From: Herpetosiphonaceae bacterium
GTDB lineage: Bacteria; Chloroflexota; Chloroflexia; Chloroflexales; Kallotenuaceae
Direction: 5' to 3'
Length of the DNA: 37,686 bases
Assembly (NCBI GenBank): GCA_036374795.1
Contig: DASUTC010000048.1
Span: forward strand, 1-37,686
Each line of letters opens with the position of its first letter. The first letter of the stretch is position 1. Below the pieces are notes generated by a model. That model was given only the letters and a program-made list of their open reading frames with translations. It did not search any database and was not told the origin of the DNA. The position numbers were made by a program, and so were the translations under genes. This document shows positions 2,499-34,267 of this stretch, piece after piece.

Positions 2499-3395
2499 CT
2501 ACGCCGCAACCTCATTCTGCACATGCTCATGCGCATGGTACGACGAGCGCACCAGCGGCCCGGACTCGACGTGCTTGAAGCCGCGCTTGAGGCCCTCCTG
2601 CTTCAAGAAGGCAAACTCGTCAGGCGTGTAGTAGCGATCCAGCGGCCAGTAATCGCTGGCGGGCGGTAGATACTGCCCGATCGTCAGCACGTCCACATCC
2701 ACGCTGCGCACATCGTCCATCACCTGCAACACCTCGTCGATCGTCTCGCCCGCGCCGACCATCAGGCCGCTCTTGGTGCGCAGATTGGCATCGAAGCGCC
2801 GCGCCCGATGCAGCAGAATCAGCGATTGCTCGTAGGTCGCCTTGGGGCGGAAGCGCGGGAAAATCCGCTTGACGGTTTCGATGTTATGGTTGAGCACATC
2901 GGGCCGCGCCTCAAGCACCATCCGAAGCGCCTGCGCATCGCCCATGAAGTCGGGGATCAGCACCTCGACGTTACAGCCGGGGATGTACTCGCGGATCAGC
3001 CGGATCGACTCGGCGAAGATATGCGCGCCGCCGTCAGGCAGATCGTCGCGGTTGACCGAGGTGAGCACCGCGTGGCGCAGCTTGAGATGCTGCACGGCCC
3101 GCGCCACGCGCTCCGGCTCGTCCTCGTCGAGCGCCTGCGGCTTGCCCTTGCCGATCGCGCAGTAGCGGCAGCCGCGCGTACATGTATCGCCCAGCAGCAA
3201 AAACGTCGCGGTGCGAAAGTTCCAGCACTCGCCGATATTGGGACAATGCGCCTCCTCACAGACTGTGTGCAGGCCGAGGTCGCGCATCAACTGGTACACG
3301 TCTTCGTAGTTCTCACCGGCGGGCATCTTCGCCTTGAGCCACGGCGGGCGCTGCAGACGCGCCTTGGGCTTGTCGAGCAGTTGTATATCAGCCAT
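2499..3395 (-). CDS. lipA: Lipoyl synthase LipA
   Basis: This radical SAM enzyme inserts two sulfurs into the octanoyl chain on lipoyl-dependent proteins such as pyruvate dehydrogenase E2 and GcvH. Both cluster sites are visible: C46, C51 and C57 ([13 protein letters not shown]) for the auxiliary [4Fe-4S] cluster, and C72, C76 and C79 (CTRGCRYC) for the SAM cluster. The conserved RSSYHA motif lies near the C-terminus. The start at 3395 (MADIQLL) has GAGG 5 nt upstream. A start at 3431 would only add residues translated from the heptad-repeat element and is rejected. The 298 aa length is typical. It lies just downstream of lipB on the same strand, so the two probably form an operon for de novo lipoate attachment. 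Confidence 0.96.
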
Positions 3396-3405
3396 TCTAT
3401 CCTCG

Positions 3406-3526
3406 TTCCGAGTTTCGAGTTCAAAGTTCAAAGTTCAAAGTTCCAAGTTTGGAGTTCTCTTCCCGACCCCTGACCCTCGCCCCCTGATATCTTGTTCCTT
3501 TGTTCTTTTGTTCTCTTGTTCTTCCG
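3406..3526. repeat. Composite heptad-repeat element between lipB and lipA
   Basis: Three blocks with 7-nt periodicity follow one another on the + strand. Seven units of the TTCAAAG/TTCCAAG type fill 3406-3454. Three units of the CCCCTGA type fill 3467-3487. A TTGTTCC/TTTGTTC run occupies about 3492-3526. Copies with the same block order flank rsgA (13652-13733) and follow the VanW gene (30171-30237, inverted orientation). The lipB stop codon (3421-3423) lies inside the first block. Confidence 0.8.
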
Positions 3527-4185
3527 TCCCCCGCGATCATCTCCACATCAAAGACCTGTCCAAACGCGGCGACGGTACGCTCCACCACCTCATCCAGCGC
3601 CACGTGCCGCCCCACCAGCGCGCCGATCGAGCCGACGCCCTTGTTGCGAATCCCACACGGCACGATCTTGGCGAAGTAGCCGAGATCGGTCGTGACGTTC
3701 AGCGCGAACCCATGCTGCGTGATGCCATGCACATCGACTTTCGTACCAATCGCCGCCAGCTTCTCGTCGCCCACCCAGACGCCAGTGAGATGGCGCACAC
3801 GCGCCGCAGCCAGGCCATAGCCCGCGCACACGGCGATCAGCACCGCCTCAAGCGCGCGCATGTAGCTGACGGCATCGAGGTGATGCTCCGCCAGCCGCAG
3901 GATCGGATAGCCGACGAGCTGGCCGGGACCATGATACGTCACATCGCCGCCTCGATCCACATCCAGCACCGCAACGCCCGCAGCTTCCAGCTCAGCCCGT
4001 GGTACCAGCAGATGCTCGTGCGCGCGTCTGCCGCGACTACCGAAGGTGTAGGTGTGCGGATGCTCCAGCAGCAGCAGCGTATCGTCGATCCGATCCGCCG
4101 CGCGCTGCGCTGCCAGCTCCTTTTGCAGCGCCCACGCCTCGGTATATCCGATCTGGCCTAGCCAATGCACCTGACAACGTTTCAT
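3421..4185 (-). CDS. lipB: Octanoyltransferase LipB with a repeat-derived C-terminal tail
   Basis: LipB moves the octanoyl group from acyl carrier protein to lipoyl domains, the step before LipA. The family motifs are present: [30 protein letters not shown], the lysine K142 in KLAAIGTKV and the acyl-bearing cysteine C177 in [11 protein letters not shown]. The ATG at 4185 is chosen over a GTG one codon earlier. No Shine-Dalgarno is visible, and a TATAAT-like -10 sits at 4195-4200, so the mRNA may be leaderless. The family core ends near residue 213. The remaining roughly 40 residues are Arg/Lys/Gly-rich and largely read through the intergenic heptad element, ending at a TGA made by the heptad itself. 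Function of the core is near certain; the tail is probably unstructured. Confidence 0.94.
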
Positions 4186-4194
4186 CACGACTAC

Positions 4195-4200
4195 ATTATA
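4195..4200 (-). promoter_or_regulatory. -10 element close to the lipB start codon
   Basis: TATAAT on the minus strand lies 9 nt upstream of the lipB ATG, so transcription would start at about the start codon. No convincing -35 box was found at the usual spacing. This fits a leaderless lipB transcript but is weak on its own. Confidence 0.4.
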
Positions 4201-4230
4201 CGTCTATTCGGCGCGTCCGCTGGTGCAACA

Positions 4231-5037
4231 TCAAGCCACGGTCGGCGCGCGCTGCTGCAACGTGAGCATACATTCGTCGTACACCGCGACGCGCTCGAAG
4301 CCGAGCCGCTCGTAGCAGGCCAGCGCGCTGGCGTTATCCGCCTTCACGTTCAGCCCAACATGATCGACCGTCTCCAGCAGCGCGTGGCACAGCTTGGCGC
4401 AGACCCGCGTGCCGAGGCCCTGCCCGCGTAGCTCCGGATGCGTGGTAACGTTGCCGAGCGCCGCGACGCGGTAGTGCCGCGAGTATACATGCACGCCCGC
4501 CACGCTGACCAGCCGGTCGCCGCGCCGAATGCCGTAGTAGTGGCCGGTTTCCAGCATACGCGGGTCGAACCAGTTGCCGGGATAGCTCGCCTGGTAGAGC
4601 GCGGTCAGATCATCGAGATCCGCCGCCGATAGCAGCGCCGCCTCCGATATGTCGATGCCGCTCAGGTGTGTGGGCCGTGTCAGCGCCATCTTGTAGTGCA
4701 GCCCGTGCTGCTGCACGTGGTAATCTTCGGCAAAGACCGGAATCACGTCGGGGCTGAGATGCGCGTACACCTGTCGCGGAAGCAGCGGCAGGATCGACCG
4801 CAGCAGCATCGGCATCAGCGCTACCGGCTCCTCGTTAAACGCTAGCAGCGTGGGCACGGACGTGCCGGAGTAGAGCAGCACAACATGCTGGATCTGCTCG
4901 TTCTGCCTCAGGCCGTACCACGTGGTGTGCTGCCAGAAGAAATCGTCAAGATCGCCGAGCGCGTAGAGATGGACAAATGGATTGCGGCGTAAGACCGCCT
5001 CGATCTCGTCTTTGACGTGTAAGCAGACCGCCTGCAC
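4231..5037 (-). CDS. GNAT family N-acetyltransferase
   Basis: An acetyl-CoA-dependent acyltransferase of unknown substrate. The C-terminal half holds the GNAT acetyl-CoA-binding motif (VTTHPELRGQGLGTRVC) followed by a CYERLGFERV-type segment. The N-terminal half (FVHLYALGDLDDFFW and on) is a family-specific region seen in FR47-like acetyltransferases. The GTG at 5037 is chosen because AAGGAG lies 5 nt upstream; the frame stays open to 5121 without a better signal. The protein is 268 aa. It is upstream of lipB on the same strand, with 45 bp between, and may share a transcript with it, but nothing ties it to lipoate metabolism. Confidence 0.85.
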   Translation of the reverse strand: MQAVCLHVKDEIEAVLRRNPFVHLYALGDLDDFFWQHTTWYGLRQNEQIQHVVLLYSGTSVPTLLAFNEEPVALMPMLLRSILPLLPRQVYAHLSPDVIPVFAEDYHVQQHGLHYKMALTRPTHLSGIDISEAALLSAADLDDLTALYQASYPGNWFDPRMLETGHYYGIRRGDRLVSVAGVHVYSRHYRVAALGNVTTHPELRGQGLGTRVCAKLCHALLETVDHVGLNVKADNASALACYERLGFERVAVYDECMLTLQQRAPTVA

Positions 5038-5152: not shown

Positions 5153-7084
5153 CTACCCGCCGACATGAACCGCCGGACGCCGCTCAGGATCAGGCTCGGC
5201 CCGGCGCAGGATCTCATGCGTCACCGGCGCGATGTCGCCCTCGCCGAAGAGGATAAAGCGCAGCAGATACTTGACCGGATTGCCCTCCGTCCAGCCAAAG
5301 TAGACGTGCGGAGTGCGGTCGGTTCGATCGCGGAGATGCAGCAGAAACGAAGCGATGGCGTTGGGCACCGCCGAGCTTTCGGCGCGCAGAATGCGGTAGC
5401 CGCCAACCTCTACGCCTTTGACTTCGAGCACATCCTCGAACTCCGAGGCGTCGCAGACCGTCACCTCCAGAAACAGAATCGGCTCGTTCGGCGGCAGGTG
5501 CGTATCCTCGCGCACTTCCTTCTCCTTGAGGTAATACTCCTGCACATCGCCCGCATCCAGCTGATTGGCGATCAGCCGAATCTCGCGCCTGCCAACCTCA
5601 TTGAGAAAGCGCTCGGCCACCGGATCGATCTCGACCCGCTCGGTCCGTAGCTCGGTCGAGCGCCAGACCCGCGAGATCAGCGAGGTGACAATGATCGCGC
5701 CGATGAAGAAGGCGGCGATCTTGATGCCATCGGGCCGCTCGACGACGTTCACCAGGGTTGTGTAGATAAAGATCAGCGTAATCAGGCCGAACGCCAGCGT
5801 CAGCCATCGCTGACGCTCACGCCACGCAGACAGCGTTACCGCGACCGCCGCCGAGCCCATCAGGGTCAGCACGCCGGTGGCATACGCGCCGCCCTGCGCG
5901 TCCACATCTGCCCGAAAGAGGTAGGTGACGACGAAGCAGACCGCCGTGAAGATGAACACCAGCGGACGAGTAGCGCGCGCCCACTCCGGCGCCATGCCAT
6001 AGCGCGGCAGATAGCGCGGCACAATATTCAGCAGACCGGCCATTGCCGAGGCACCGGCAAACCACAGGATCGCAATCGTGCTGAGGTCGTAGAGCGTGCC
6101 AAAGATGTCGCCCAGGTAATGATGGGCCAGATACGCCAGCGCGCGACCGTTGGCCTCGCCGCCTTCCAGAAATTCGGCGGGCGGTATCAGCAGCGTGGTG
6201 ATAAAGCTGCTCGAAATCAGCATCACGCTCATAATCAGCGCCGCTCCCATCAGCAGCTTGCGCGTATTGTGGATGCGCCCTACAGGCCGCTCGTCGGTGT
6301 CGCCGGGATAGCCTCGCACCAGCGGCATCACGACCACACCCGTCTCGAAGCCGGAGAGCCCAAGCGCGAGCTTTGGAAACAGGATCAGGGCCGTGCCGAT
6401 CATCACAAAAATATTGCCGTGAGTCGTGAACAGCGCACGCTGCCAGTTCGTCAGCACCTCCGGGTGTTGTACAATCTGGTACAGTCCAACGCCGACGACG
6501 ACCAGGCTCAGCGCGATGTAGGCGGCTACCACGCCAACCGCGATTCCGATCGCCTCCTTGAAACCTTTAAGGAAGACCGCGCCGAGCAATGCGATCAGCA
6601 CGATCGTCACGGCGACCGGATGATCGAGCCAGCGAGGAACCAGCGGATTTTCAATAATATGCGCGGTCGCGTCGGCGGCGGAGAGGGTGATCGTGATAAT
6701 GAAGCTGGTGGTAACGAAGCCGATCAAACACAGAACAAACAGCTTGCCCTGCCACCATGAGAGCAGGCGCTCAAGCATCGAGATCGAGCCGTCGCCGTGC
6801 GGGCTTTCGGCTGCGACGCGATTATACATTGGCAGCGCGCCGAAGAGCGTCAGCAGCACCAGCACAATCGTTGCCAGCGGCGAGAGCGCACCCGCCGCCA
6901 GCGCGGCGATGCCGGGCTGATAGCCAAGCGTGGAGAAGTAATCCACGCCCGTGAGACACATCACCTGCCACCAGGGATGCGTATGGTGCTCGCGCTCCTT
7001 CTCATACGGCCCTTCCATCTCCTTGGGCTGGTCTCCGAGCAGCCAGCGTGTCAAGCGATTGTTGGAACTGATCGGTCGCGCCAT
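5153..7084 (-). CDS. APC-superfamily permease with soluble C-terminal domain
   Basis: A multi-pass inner-membrane transporter of the amino acid-polyamine-organocation superfamily. The motif [17 protein letters not shown] opens the membrane domain, which has about twelve hydrophobic segments over residues 45-480. A soluble domain of about 160 residues follows (from [14 protein letters not shown]), of the kind often regulatory in this superfamily. The 643 aa length is long for a plain amino acid permease. The start at 7084 (MARPISSN) has AGGAG about 9 nt upstream. The substrate cannot be told: amino acids are the default, but potassium carriers (KUP/KimA) are distant relatives and remain possible. 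The upstream gap holds a nested inverted repeat that might act in its leader. Confidence 0.85.
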
Positions 7085-7932: not shown

Positions 7933-7990
7933 ACTCCTTGTTCTGGGTGTGCCCAAAGGGTACCCGGTTCTTGGGTCTTCTTTCCCCGCG

Positions 7991-13625: not shown

Positions 13626-13651
13626 GCGGTTCTCCTGAACAACATTACGAG

Positions 13652-13733
13652 TTTCAAGTTCCAAGTTTCGAGTTCCAAGTTCCAAGTTTCAAGCTTCGAG
13701 CTATTCCCTTGTTCCTTTATTCCTTTGTTCTCC
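13652..13733. repeat. Composite heptad-repeat element upstream of rsgA
   Basis: Seven perfect-register heptads of the TTCCAAG/TTTCAAG/TTTCGAG type fill 13652-13700. A TTGTTCC/TTTATTCC/TTTGTTC run follows to about 13733. The block order and orientation match the lipB-lipA element, without the CCCCTGA block. It lies downstream of the Eis-like gene and upstream of rsgA on the minus strand. Confidence 0.8.
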
Positions 13734-17983: not shown

Positions 17984-19264
17984 ATGATGCAGAATTGGCG
18001 ACTCACAGAGCGGCTTGATACGATCTTAGATCGATCGATCGACCGGCTGGACGAGGACACTCCAGAAGACATCGTACACGACTACCCACAGTCGGCCAAT
18101 CAGCTTGCTCCGATGCTCCACGTGGCGGATGCCCTGCGCGAGCTGGGGCGTGTCAAGATGCGACGCGCCGCGAAAGAGGTCGGTCGAGCACGGCTGCGGC
18201 AAGCAGTTCTGGCCCGGCAGCAGCGGCGGAGCGGCTGGTTCGGTGTGCCAGGCGGGCTGCGCATGGCGGCCTGGGCAGTGCTGTTCCTGGTTGTTTGCAT
18301 TGGTTCGTTATCGAGTATAACCGTTGTATCAGCACAAGCCCTACCGAACGAGCCGCTGTATGGCTGGAAGCGCACCAGCGAGCGAATCTGGCTGAGCATC
18401 CAGTCGAATCCTGAGCGCAAGATCGCGGTTTCGCTCGCCCTGGCGGATCGGCGCGTGGAAGAAATACGTCAGCTCCATCGACGATCGGGGTCGGTGAGCC
18501 GGGATGTGATTGTTCAGCTTCGGGCCGACTATATACGAACGCTCGAACTGATCGCCGCACTCCCAAACGACCAGGCGAAGCCGCTGCTTGAGCAGGCCCA
18601 CGCGCTTAGCGCGCAGCACGAGCAGGAGCTGATGGCGCTGGCCGAGCAGGCGACCGGCTCGCAGCAGCAGATGATCTTATCTGCGGTGCAGGCCAGCCAA
18701 TGGGTACAGAGCGCGACACCTGATGGTCCCGTCGTGCCGCCCACACCGATTCCCGCCGAGCCGAGTATGGGAGCGCCGCCGACGACGATCGAGCCGGGAT
18801 CGCCGGATGCGGCACCGAAGCTGCCACGGCCCAGCCCGAAGAACCCGCCGACGAGCGCGCCGATCGAGCCACCGGCGGCTGTCGCTCCGGGGGAACCGGC
18901 GGCACCCAAGCCGACGCAAGCGCCCGCGCCGCCCGCGCAGCCGGGGACCGATAGCCCACCGGCGGCACCCAAGCCGACGCAAGCGCCCGCGCCGCCCGCG
19001 CAGCCGGGAACCGATAGCCCGCCGGCAGCGCCACAGCCGACCGATGTGCCAGAGCCGCCCAAGACACAGCCGACCGACGCGCCGGTGCCGACGCAGCCCG
19101 GCCCACCGGATAACCCACCTGGGCAGGGCAATCCGCAGCCTCCGGGTCCGCCCAGCACGCCACCCGGCCAGGGCTATCCCCCGCCGGGATCGCCAAACGA
19201 ACCGCCGGGCAACCCTCAGCCGGGGCCGCCCGACGACCCGCCGGGGAAGGGCAAAGACAAGTAG
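17984..19264 (+). CDS. DUF5667-like membrane protein with Pro-rich tail, probable anti-sigma partner
   Basis: A 426-aa one-pass membrane protein. The cytoplasmic N-terminus (1-90) is helical and charged. A transmembrane segment lies at about 92-112 (AAWAVLFLVVCIGSLSSITVV). An external helical domain (about 113-235, LPNEPLYGWKRTSERIWLSI and on) is of the DUF5667 type. The last 190 residues are Pro/Gly/Ala-rich and low in complexity, with a 21-residue unit repeated twice. The gene is 16 nt after the sigma factor gene, the usual place for an anti-sigma factor, and sequestration of the sigma factor by its N-terminus is inferred. The Pro-rich tail probably spans or contacts the wall. Confidence 0.85.
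   Translation: MMQNWRLTERLDTILDRSIDRLDEDTPEDIVHDYPQSANQLAPMLHVADALRELGRVKMRRAAKEVGRARLRQAVLARQQRRSGWFGVPGGLRMAAWAVLFLVVCIGSLSSITVVSAQALPNEPLYGWKRTSERIWLSIQSNPERKIAVSLALADRRVEEIRQLHRRSGSVSRDVIVQLRADYIRTLELIAALPNDQAKPLLEQAHALSAQHEQELMALAEQATGSQQQMILSAVQASQWVQSATPDGPVVPPTPIPAEPSMGAPPTTIEPGSPDAAPKLPRPSPKNPPTSAPIEPPAAVAPGEPAAPKPTQAPAPPAQPGTDSPPAAPKPTQAPAPPAQPGTDSPPAAPQPTDVPEPPKTQPTDAPVPTQPGPPDNPPGQGNPQPPGPPSTPPGQGYPPPGSPNEPPGNPQPGPPDDPPGKGKDK
18895..19020 (+). repeat. Two tandem 63-bp repeats in the Pro-rich tail
   Basis: Units 18895-18957 and 18958-19020 are almost identical and encode AAPKPTQAPAPPAQPGTDSP-type 21-residue repeats. A partial third unit follows. Near identity at silent positions suggests a recent duplication by slippage, and copy number may vary between strains. 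Confidence 0.85.
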
Positions 19265-26249: not shown

Positions 26250-27629
26250 ATGGCGACAGCAGCACAGCCGGTTCAGATGCGTCCGAGCCGGGGCATCACC
26301 AACATCGACGAGGCGATTGAGCAGATCGGCGTGGGGCGCTTCCAGTGGCGGCTTCTGCTGGTGAACGGCCTGACCTGGGCGGCAGACGCGATGGAGGTCC
26401 TGATCGCGGGCTTTGTGCTGCCGGGCGTGATCGCGGTGTTCGGGCTTCAGAATAGCCCGGCGCGGCAGACGCTCTTTCTTTCGGCGACGTTCACCGGCAT
26501 GTTTATCGGCGCGCTGGTGTGGGGCGCGCTCGCCGATCGCTTTGGGCGGCGCAACGTGTTTCTGCTGACGGTGCTGCTCGACGCGGTGTTTGGCCTGGCC
26601 TCGGCGCTCGCGCCCTCGTACGGCCTGCTGGTCGCATTCCGCTTTCTGACCGGCTTCGCCGTGGGCGGGACACTGCCGGTGGACTACTCGCTGCTGGCAG
26701 AGTACGTTCCGGCCAAAGATCGCGGGCGCTTCCTGGTCTATCTTGAGAGCTTCTGGGCGCTGGGCACGATCGCGGTGGCGGCGATCTCGTGGTTCATGTT
26801 CGCGCGGTTCGTTCCGGCTGAGGCGTGGCGCTGGGTGCTGGGCGCGTCGGCGATACCCGGCCTGATCGGCTACTGGATTCGGCGGCGCGTGCCGGAGTCG
26901 CCGCGCTACCTGCTGATCCAGGGCCATCCGACAGAGGCGCGACGGGTGCTGGAGACGATCGCGCGCGAGAACGGCAGGCCAGTCGAGATCGGGGAGCTGG
27001 AGCCGATCCAGGGCGCGGCGCGGGTGCCGCTGGCGGCGATCTGGCGCGGAACGCTGGCGCGGCGCACGTTCTTCCTGTCGATCGTCTGGTTCTCGCTGTC
27101 GCTGGGCTACTACGGCATCTTCACCTGGCTGCCGCGCTTCTTCCAGGCGCAGGGCTACGCGCTGCTTCCGGCCTATCAAAACACGCTGCTGCTGGCGATC
27201 TCGCAGATCCCCGGCTATGTGCTGGCGGCCTACCTGATCGATCGGATCGGGCGGCGACCGACGCTGGCGCTGTATCTGTTTGTGAGCGCGATTGCCAGCT
27301 TCTTGTTTGCCGTGGCGACAAGCACGACCGCGATCGTGATCACCAGCAATCTGCTCTCGTTCTCGCTGCTGGGCGCGTGGGGCGCTCTCTACGTCTTCTC
27401 GCCGGAGCTGTACCCGACGGATGCCCGCACGACAGGCATGGGCTGGGTCAGCGCGATGGCGCGGCTCGCCAGCATCTTCGCGCCCTCGGTGGGCGGGGCG
27501 CTGCTGGGCTACTCGCTGGCGCTGGCGCTGGGCGTGTACGCCGCCTTCTTTATCCTGGGCGGGATCGCGGCGCTGCTGATGGGCACCGAGACGCGCAACC
27601 AGCGGCTCGCTGATGTGACCCCTGTGTGA
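26250..27629 (+). CDS. MFS transporter (sugar/SV2/NiaP-like branch)
   Basis: A 459-aa major facilitator superfamily carrier with about 12 transmembrane segments. The first has [17 protein letters not shown], close to the SV2/NiaP and aromatic-acid branches. The conserved loop [15 protein letters not shown] between segments 2 and 3, its counterpart [13 protein letters not shown] in the second half, and [14 protein letters not shown] are family hallmarks. The ATG at 26250 has AGGG 6 nt upstream; the frame is open to 26169 without a better site. The substrate cannot be assigned: organic acids, niacin or sugars are all possible. The preceding 196 bp show no clear promoter. Confidence 0.9.
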
Positions 27630-27661
27630 TCCTGGTTTTGAGTTTCGAGATGAGGCCCTCA

Positions 27662-27703
27662 CCACGCCGGGTGCCCTTTGGGCATGGCCCCCCGGCCTCG
27701 TGG
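27662..27703. terminator. Compound hairpin after the MFS gene
   Basis: CCACG (27662-27666) pairs with CGTGG (27699-27703), CCGGG (27667-27671) with CCCGG (27691-27695), and TGCCC (27672-27676) with GGGCA (27680-27684). A TTGTTC-type repeat remnant follows (about 27712-27740). Terminator role is inferred from position. Confidence 0.45.
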
Positions 27704-27726
27704 CGCTGTGTTCCCTTGTTCTTCGC

Positions 27727-27755
27727 TTGGTTCTTGGTTCGTCGTGGGTTACAAT
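27727..27755 (+). promoter_or_regulatory. Promoter of the endonuclease III-like gene
   Basis: TTGGTT (27727-27732) and TACAAT (27750-27755) are spaced by 17 nt. The predicted start is near 27762, about 14 nt before the ATG. Confidence 0.5.
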
Positions 27756-28722: not shown

Positions 28723-30165
28723 GTGTCCCACCGTACTTACCGCACGCTGCTCCTTGCGCTAGCCCTGCTGCTGGCTGCGGGAACGTTCGGCAGCGTTGTT
28801 CCTCGCGCTGCCGCCGCGCCAGCTTCGCCAGCCGATTCCGGCCCGTTCCGCTACTTCAAGGAAACCGGCCACAACATCGGCACCCGCATCAAGGCGTTCT
28901 ACGAACAGAACGGCGGCATTCCAATCTTTGGCCTGCCGCTGACCGAGGTCGTCCGCGAGGGCAACCTCGAAGTGCAGTATTTCGAGCGCGCCCGCTTTGA
29001 GCTGCATCCTGAGTTCGAGCCAGCCTTCTATGTGTCGATCACGCAGCTTGGTCGGTCGCTGATCGAGGGCCGCACCGAGCCAGCGTTTGCGCCGCAGCTC
29101 GCCGAGAACGACGCGAACACGACCTACTTCCCGCAGACCGGCCACAGCATCCGCTTTGGCTTCCGCGCCTTCTGGCTCAAAAACGGCGGCCTGCCGATCT
29201 TCGGCTATCCGCTGTCCGAGGAGTTCACGGAGGTCAGCCCCGACGACGGTAAAGAATATACCGTGCAGTACTTCGAGCGGATCAAGCTTGAGTATCATCC
29301 CGAAGATCCGCAGAGCCAGATCAAGCTTTCCCGGCTGGGCGCGCAGGCGCTCGATCGCTCAGGGCTGCCCGAGTCGGTGCGGCGTCCCGTTCCGGCGATC
29401 TCGCTGCTGAGCACGGCGACCACCGGCTACTTCGGCTCGATCGCGGAGCGCGTCAACAACATCGCGCGCGGCGCTGCCCGCATGAACGGGCTGATCATCG
29501 CGCCGGGCGCGACCTTCTCGTTCAACAACGCGCTCGGCTCAGCGGGCACGGAGGACGGCTTTGTCGAGGGCTATGCGATCGTCAACGGCCAGCTCGAAAA
29601 AGTGACCGGCGGCGGTATCTGCCAGATCTCGACCACGATGTACCGCGCGGTGTTCAACGCGGGCCTCGATATTGTCGATCGGCGGCCACACTCGTATGTG
29701 ATCAACTTCTACGAGAACATCGACGGCTTCGACGCGACGGTCTTCGCGCCCTACGTCGATTTCAAGTGGCGCAACGACACGGGCGGCCCGATCTACATGA
29801 TGGCCGCGACCAATCCCAAGGCTGCGACCGTGACCTTCTGGTTGTACGGCTTCAACGATGGGCGCAAAACCCAGATGGTCGGACCATTCTCGAAGAACGT
29901 CAAGAGGCAGGGCATCGCCAACTGGCAGTACGATCCGTCGCTCAAGCGCGGCCAGGTGATCCAGCTTGTCCACGGACGGCCCGGCAAGGATGTTGAGATG
30001 CAGCGCATCGTGACGGCGGCGAACGGCAAGATCCTGCACAAGGATAACCTGTCGAGCAAGTATCGCCCGTGGGAAGACTTCTATGCCTACGGTCCCGGCG
30101 TAACGCCTCCCAAGGGCGTGAACATCATTCCGGCCAAGACCAAGGCGAAAGCGCCGTCGCGGTAG
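28723..30165 (+). CDS. Secreted VanW family protein with two N-terminal repeats
   Basis: A 480-aa exported protein. A signal peptide spans about residues 1-32 (LLLALALLLAAGTFGSVV then PRAAAA). Two repeats follow (about 43-105 and 133-205), each reading roughly YF-ETGH-I, F-NGG-PIFG-PL-E and VQYFER, likely wall- or surface-binding modules common in Chloroflexota. The VanW domain is at about 245-380 (GATFSFNNALG, TGGGICQISTTMYRAVFNAGL, RPHSY). VanW is a cell-surface domain whose activity is not established. The GTG at 28723 has GAGAGG 6 nt upstream. A strong promoter precedes it and a terminator follows. Confidence 0.9.
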   Translation: MSHRTYRTLLLALALLLAAGTFGSVVPRAAAAPASPADSGPFRYFKETGHNIGTRIKAFYEQNGGIPIFGLPLTEVVREGNLEVQYFERARFELHPEFEPAFYVSITQLGRSLIEGRTEPAFAPQLAENDANTTYFPQTGHSIRFGFRAFWLKNGGLPIFGYPLSEEFTEVSPDDGKEYTVQYFERIKLEYHPEDPQSQIKLSRLGAQALDRSGLPESVRRPVPAISLLSTATTGYFGSIAERVNNIARGAARMNGLIIAPGATFSFNNALGSAGTEDGFVEGYAIVNGQLEKVTGGGICQISTTMYRAVFNAGLDIVDRRPHSYVINFYENIDGFDATVFAPYVDFKWRNDTGGPIYMMAATNPKAATVTFWLYGFNDGRKTQMVGPFSKNVKRQGIANWQYDPSLKRGQVIQLVHGRPGKDVEMQRIVTAANGKILHKDNLSSKYRPWEDFYAYGPGVTPPKGVNIIPAKTKAKAPSR

Positions 30166-30170
30166 GCGGG

Positions 30171-30237
30171 GAACGAACAGAGAACAAAGAACAAGGCAAA
30201 ACCTTGAACTTTGAACTCGGAACGTTGAGCTTTGAAC
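30171..30237. repeat. Composite heptad-repeat element after the VanW gene (inverted copy)
   Basis: GAACAGAGAACAAAGAACA-type units at about 30171-30195 are followed by five heptads CTTGAAC, TTTGAAC, TCGGAAC, GTTGAGC, TTTGAAC (30203-30237). Reverse-complemented, the block order equals that of the copies at 3406 and 13652. Relative to transcription, all three copies lie downstream of a gene and read the same way. Confidence 0.8.
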
Positions 30238-30251
30238 TTCGCCCGCCCCTA

Positions 30252-30288
30252 GACCAACCGCCGTCTCGTTTTCGAGCGGCGGTTGGTC
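30252..30288. terminator. Bidirectional intrinsic terminator
   Basis: A 12-bp stem (30252-30263 with 30277-30288) is extended by CTCG-TTTT-CGAG at the apex. It sits between the VanW gene (+) and the small basic protein gene (-), which converge. Confidence 0.75.
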
Positions 30289-34147: not shown

Positions 34148-34267
34148 AGAGCAAAGAACACCGAGAACCCAATCCCCGCTCCTATCTTAATGGGAGAGGG
34201 GTGCTGAGCGCAGCGAAGCGGGGTGAGGGCCTGAACGCGAAACTCAGAAGGTTGAAGCTGAGATGAA

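Follow-up and report, generated by a model that had tools for sequence, protein, structure and literature searches.

Polar composite elements built from heptad repeats lie behind many genes of a Herpetosiphonaceae bacterium

The spacers of a Herpetosiphonaceae genome contain interspersed elements that are mosaics of 7- or 8-base repeats plus GC-rich hairpin modules, arranged with one polarity and placed close behind stop codons. We lean toward the explanation that these heptad-repeat mosaics owe their spread to slippage, ectopic recombination or template switching and are tolerated in 3′ UTRs, with one sense favored. Heptad repeats at bacterial gene ends were noticed decades ago, and their seven-base unit, their siting at stop codons and their spread lack explanation. 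The host studied here offers by estimate some thousand elements with strictly ordered modules and a sense bias, as well as one close relative whose dialect differs and others that hold almost no elements. Origin and function are hence testable through sister strains and single-array deletions.

The window, by which we mean the whole stretch of 37,686 nt that was analyzed, is one contig (C48) of a draft genome of 7.75 Mb (373 contigs, GC content 63.5%). Its tandem repeats were located with TRF, which scored the arrays at 30–79. The elements are composed of six modules with one polarity, namely B, D, the E and F hairpins, G and A, four of which read as follows.

Module B: (GAACAAA/G)n
Module D: (CAAGAAC)n
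Module G: GGGGTGAGGGCC
Module A: (T-Y-G/T-R-AAC)n

The features of the window that bear on the analysis are the following.

2440–2474, no strand: two B units, AGAACAGAGAACA...TGTTCTCTGTTCT, facing each other as an inverted pair in a convergent gap (sequence)
2499–3395, minus: lipA (lipoyl synthase), downstream of the first element (TIGR00510, 361 bits)
3406–3526, minus: composite element in the lipB–lipA gap (sequence and TRF)
3421–4185, minus: lipB ORF (NCBIfam lipB match stops at residue 213–223 of 255)
7938–7980, minus: fragment TTGTTCTGGGTGTGCCCAAAGGGTACCCGGTTCTTGG (b, E-type hairpin, d) (gap sequence)
13650–13733, minus: composite element between the 13751–14950 gene (minus) and rsgA (sequence and TRF)
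27640–27740, plus: reverse-sense element (a, g, E, b, d) behind the MFS gene at 26250–27629 (sequence)
30171–30239, plus: composite element behind the VanW-domain gene at 28723–30165 (plus) (sequence and TRF)
30253–30287, plus: terminator-like hairpin, ACCAACCGCCG...CGGCGGTTGGT, that follows the third element (sequence and G001 ortholog)
34160–34232, plus: D, F hairpin and G modules behind the 33578–34147 gene (sequence)

A sequence-only reading of the window had claimed three composite copies, beginning at 3406, 13652 and 30171, that share block order and sense relative to the upstream gene, together with fragments behind other genes. Sequence and TRF recover all three copies, order and sense agree in each, and the fragments are those at 2440–2474, 7938–7980, 27640–27740 and 34160–34232. 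Read along the upstream gene, the B block comes first and the A heptads last. On the minus strand, the 3406–3526 copy consists of a B block (3491–3523), a TCAGGGG-type block (about 3466–3488) and A heptads (3406–3457); the second copy has its B block at 13704–13731 and its A heptads at 13650–13702. The third, with a B block at 30174–30194 and A heptads at 30200–30239, is the reverse complement of the 3406–3526 order. In the gene direction, the A heptads read GAACTTT, GAAACTT or GGAACTT, and the B block reads GAACAAA/GAACAAAG with a period of 7 or 8. The proposed 7-nt period therefore holds only in part: it is found, but the TTGTTCC-type B block of the lipB–lipA copy has a period of 8 by TRF, and both periods occur genome-wide. 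Similarly, the CCCCTGA heptads described for that copy are present as a block around 3466–3488, but the block is imperfect and the heptads are not among the strongly over-represented words in the word count of a 1.157-Mb sample.

At its 3′ end, the lipB ORF runs into the lipB–lipA element. The last ~30 codons of lipB come from the element, with the stop codon TGA inside a CTTTGAAC heptad; the C-terminus of lipB in a close relative, G001, is different and ordinary. As seen at lipB, an element at times takes the place of a gene's final codons or of an older spacer.

The wider sample comprised 18 contigs, the window and 17 more, in which genes were called with our own hexamer-model caller on this one assembly and elements were defined as clusters of over-represented 10-mers. 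It contains 187 elements, covering about 1.1% of its bases; 150 of them have no coding overlap at all, and coding sequence makes up 8.3% of element bases versus 85.8% of the sample. Because the contigs are a non-random set, mostly chosen for size among contigs with repeat matches, densities scale to the whole genome only roughly, and by extrapolation the genome would hold some thousand elements. The most over-represented words in the sample are AAGTTCCAAGTT, AACAAGGGAACA, GTTCTTGGTTCT, GGTGAGGGCC and GGGTGCC. In non-coding DNA, GTTC/GAAC shows 261 recurrences at a distance of 7 nt, where 10.4 would be expected, and 150 at 8 nt, with no such recurrence at 6 or 9 nt. The TTGTTCY octad pattern is found at 430 places in the whole genome with at most two mismatches, versus 93 for the mirror pattern. 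In the pattern search for A arrays, by contrast, the mirror is not a valid control, since the reversed A pattern matches these arrays too. The recurrence at lags 7 and 8, the word over-representation and the octad versus mirror counts rule out a chance origin of the repeats.

The module order is strict. Once all gaps are turned to put A in sense, a B, D, E, F or G module stands ahead of A in each of 90 cases, with no exception, and whole elements that face the other way show this order back to front (a, g, E, d, b). Further co-directional gaps hold B...b inverted arrays without A. Counted per gap in co-directional gaps, sense exceeds antisense by 42:12 for A, 30:8 for D, 48:20 for B and 13:4 for G. 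The repeats had been described as sharing one sense relative to transcription; the bias is real, but at about 2.4:1 to 4:1, depending on the module, it is not absolute.

The elements are also tied to gene ends. In 101 co-directional gaps, they start a median of 9 nt past the upstream stop codon and end a median of 35 nt ahead of the following start; for 85 of them the stop is the closer of the two codons, for 16 the start (sign test, 1.5e-12), a bias to which the room taken by the ribosome-binding site contributes. The upstream ORF extends into the element in 19 of the 101. Density is 1.5 elements/kb in convergent gaps and 0.44/kb in divergent gaps, which adjoin no gene 3′ end. The link to gene 3′ ends and to orientation that had been suggested is thus borne out, with placement far from random. 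Gaps with an element measure 159 nt and, once the element is subtracted, 55 nt, as compared to 77.5 nt for ordinary gaps; the elements add length to ordinary short spacers.

A rival reading, which we consider possible but doubtful, is that the elements function in 3′ UTRs. Arrays would fold or bind a protein at spaced GAAC sites, thereby protecting or ending the upstream mRNA, and selection would keep order and sense; folding would join B to b and, more loosely, A to B or D, and the protein could bind RNA or DNA. The start a median of 9 nt past the stop, the sense bias and the strict module order are consistent with this reading. So is the fold z-score, with a median of −1.8 versus −0.4 in control gaps and equal values on both strands, and so is the scarcity of other hairpins outside the element (6 of 101 co-directional gaps versus 14 expected for matched lengths). 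Neighboring A units point the same way, in that their AAC core is steadier than the spacer whichever anchor word is used. However, this pattern is not clearly seen in B arrays, and the variable spacer sites in A arrays are often CpG/TpG, so that the lower core variation could be mutational. It may reflect either recognition or CpG decay, and GAAC as a recognition core was rejected because B arrays are unclear and CpG decay could explain the A arrays.

The arms of B...b arrays pair well and those of B...A weakly, and GC-rich perfect hairpins occur in just 4 of 101 co-directional elements. An element's own arms beat arms swapped between elements only slightly (in all three classes, p lies at about 0.07–0.085), and arm covariation as proof of RNA hairpins was rejected on these values. 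Some elements lie in divergent gaps, and many are missing at the orthologous genes of close relatives. The implied role at RNA 3′ ends lacks support at 30171–30239 and 34160–34232, where a terminator-like hairpin still follows downstream of each (30253–30287 in the first case). Given the shortage of ordinary hairpins in element-bearing gaps, some elements, such as that at 27640–27740, may nevertheless have assumed a 3′-end role.

Comparison with relatives, all draft genomes in which presence at window gaps was judged by eye, indicates turnover of the elements. G001 is mostly 74–88% identical at the DNA level in these gaps; G002 and G003 are more distant. The matching gaps of G001, G002, G003 and G004 (three congeners and one member of another genus) lack the lipB–lipA element, and no element is found at the G003 gap that corresponds to 13650–13733. 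At the site of 30171–30239, the host and G001 bear different B-type arrays, each upstream of a terminator-like hairpin, that of G001 being similar to 30253–30287; G002 and G003 have no array there. At the site of 27640–27740, G001 has an ordinary terminator-like hairpin in place of the element, and the gap that spans window positions 4185–4231 holds an array in G001 alone. Across 66 gaps, elements occur in both the host and G001 in 8, in the host only in 8, in G001 only in 5 and in neither in 45 (odds ratio 9, Fisher p = 0.0015). With G003, 4 gaps have an element in the host only, 18 in neither, and none is shared. These patterns indicate that elements were gained in the host and G001 lineages, often at the same gene ends and with different modules. 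The elements are young, lineage-specific additions to spacers; the sharing of sites between the host and G001 could reflect site preference or function.

The units themselves differ between genomes. G001 uses TAGAACC heptads beside CAAGAAC and GAACAAA and has F and G modules; A and E modules are not found in it, and its module order relative to G is loose. This separate dialect, with no A module, implies that units are homogenized within a genome. The arrays are patchily distributed across relatives: A arrays are absent from 59 other genomes of the order and abundant (56 matches) in G263, a distant member of the phylum, and B arrays are found in G001 and in G048 (another family of the same order; 80 matches) and are rare or absent elsewhere. 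The D-to-E junction has a sole match in 84,980 named genomes, the congener MAG JAFAYS01, which is labeled Chloroflexota and has a DNA identity of about 80% with the host genome. G048 also has octad inverted arrays, (TGACAAGA)n, at L177:1683-1774 and 5218-5259, and heptad (GCAATCC)n arrays beside GAAC arrays at L177:1096-1137; several unrelated families of 7–8 nt therefore have the same layout. In G263, AGTTCCA arrays of up to ~20 units face CTTGGAA arrays ~60–120 nt away (L178:7799-7962, L179:8962-9287).

The favored explanation, spreading mosaics tolerated in 3′ UTRs, accommodates this turnover. Slippage in replication would continually rebuild arrays internally, as suggested by the near-identical units that the arrays hold. 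Spread between loci is implied by their common dialect, and elements may be both spread and rebuilt when dispersed copies undergo template switching or recombine ectopically. The closest element pairs are about 80% identical over 130 nt, and there are no long near-identical cassettes, which argues for rebuilding rather than recent transposition; recent cassette transposition was rejected on this ground. Elements would persist almost only right behind stop codons, where neither gene nor promoter is broken. In the favored sense, the purine-rich strand, with GAAC on top, is the coding strand; the bias is observed, and it may stem from which elements persist. Most elements are probably neutral or mildly tolerated, and B...b inverted arrays, which can form long hairpins in 3′ UTRs, may have the side effect of stabilizing or attenuating certain transcripts. 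Pure slippage predicts neither the 90:0 order nor the sense bias, and an ordered ancestor, whole-unit copying or selection is thus needed in addition.

An unlikely alternative is a mobile element of the non-autonomous kind, similar to MITE, BOX or REP sequences, with set polarity and a transposase acting in trans, whose decayed, slippage-prone ends would be the arrays. The single polarity in both orientations and the presence/absence polymorphism relative to relatives fit this idea, as does a modular build that resembles BOX elements of Streptococcus pneumoniae, which are modular, polar, non-coding, variable in the number of internal modules and thought to be parasitic (PMC3049150). The host elements are likewise modular, polar, non-coding and interspersed; however, BOX has longer modules and recognizable termini (PMC3049150), whereas host modules are heptad arrays for which no ends and, in the search for Y1 enzymes, no mobilizing transposase were found. 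No cassette copies exceed about 80% identity over at least 100 nt, and the few empty sites inspected by eye (lipB–lipA, C123:4073, C349:6734) show no target-site duplication. Unlike REP/BIME sequences with their RAYT, the host genome has only a 52-aa Y1_Tnp fragment, broken by a stop, and no intact Y1/RAYT transposase. RVT_1 was not found in the host (G000), G001, G048 or G263, and spread by RAYT or reverse transcriptase was rejected since these searches turned up no intact enzyme.

We give little credence to a process new to the literature and linked to transcription that would write polar NNN-GAAC heptad arrays behind stop codons, with B/D on the gene side and A on the far side. Spacers would then carry lineage dialects, no known transposase or reverse transcriptase would be needed, and the arrays would constitute a genome-wide 3′-UTR code for one binding factor. 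It is highly improbable that the elements are ordinary intrinsic terminators, if of an unusual, AT-rich type: position, the hairpin potential of B...b arrays and the replacement of a G001 terminator-like hairpin at 27640–27740 agree with such a role, but an element lies between lipB and lipA, others lie in divergent gaps, A-ended elements yield weak stems only, GC stems are few, and the hairpins downstream of 30171–30239 and 34160–34232 indicate that the repeats are not simply terminators.

Several known repeats invite comparison with the spreading mosaics that we favor. The STRR of heterocystous cyanobacteria (Calothrix/Nostoc) are tandem heptanucleotides dispersed between genes; we take their unit sequences to be different from those of the host, a member of the Chloroflexota. 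Mycobacterial MIRU are intergenic repeats in operons that have the sense of the flanking genes and overlap stop and start codons. Host repeats are likewise intergenic, mostly share the sense of flanking genes and can overlap a stop; MIRU units are tens of bases long and are not known to form heptad arrays. Rehm et al. (2015) described heptameric intergenic repeats, GGGAATC in Xanthomonas and GGGGA(T/C)T in Nostoc, at well over 100 loci that are about 90% intergenic; they found no function and cited the hypothesis that polymerase slippage accounts for the seven-base unit (PMC4692102). The host elements are similar in that seven-base tandem units are over-represented in intergenic DNA, with period 8 in addition, and in that they lie close behind the upstream ORF, form inverted pairs, are scarce between divergent genes and vary in sequence and length between relatives (PMC4692102). 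In contrast, the host units are A-rich GAAC heptads or octads, and B, D and A have no regular GGG tract, whereas the Xanthomonas/Nostoc repeats are G-quadruplex formers; the host repeats are of the same kind but form another family. The host elements also join several unit families and GC hairpins in a fixed polar order and are sense-biased, whereas the Xanthomonas repeats are about equal on either strand (PMC4692102). The composite layout at gene ends had been called distinct; placement is shared with these repeats, and the fixed polar order of multiple modules is what sets the host apart. The literature searched contains no description of the unit sequences or of the composite. The new part is the polar composite grammar; the distribution matches that of the Xanthomonas and Nostoc heptamers.

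Other repeats were also observed. A separate interspersed palindrome, (G)TGCAGAATC...GATTCTGCAC, at C342:25993-26034 and C344:32326-32368 is unrelated to the heptad mosaics, and the palindrome GGGGCGTGATNNATCACGCCCC recurs between genes in G001 and G002 (L190, L193, L167). Within the window, a 63-nt tandem repeat of 2.3–2.6 copies lies at 18895–19060 inside the ORF at 17984–19264, whose G003 counterpart has a repeat-rich tail of other composition.
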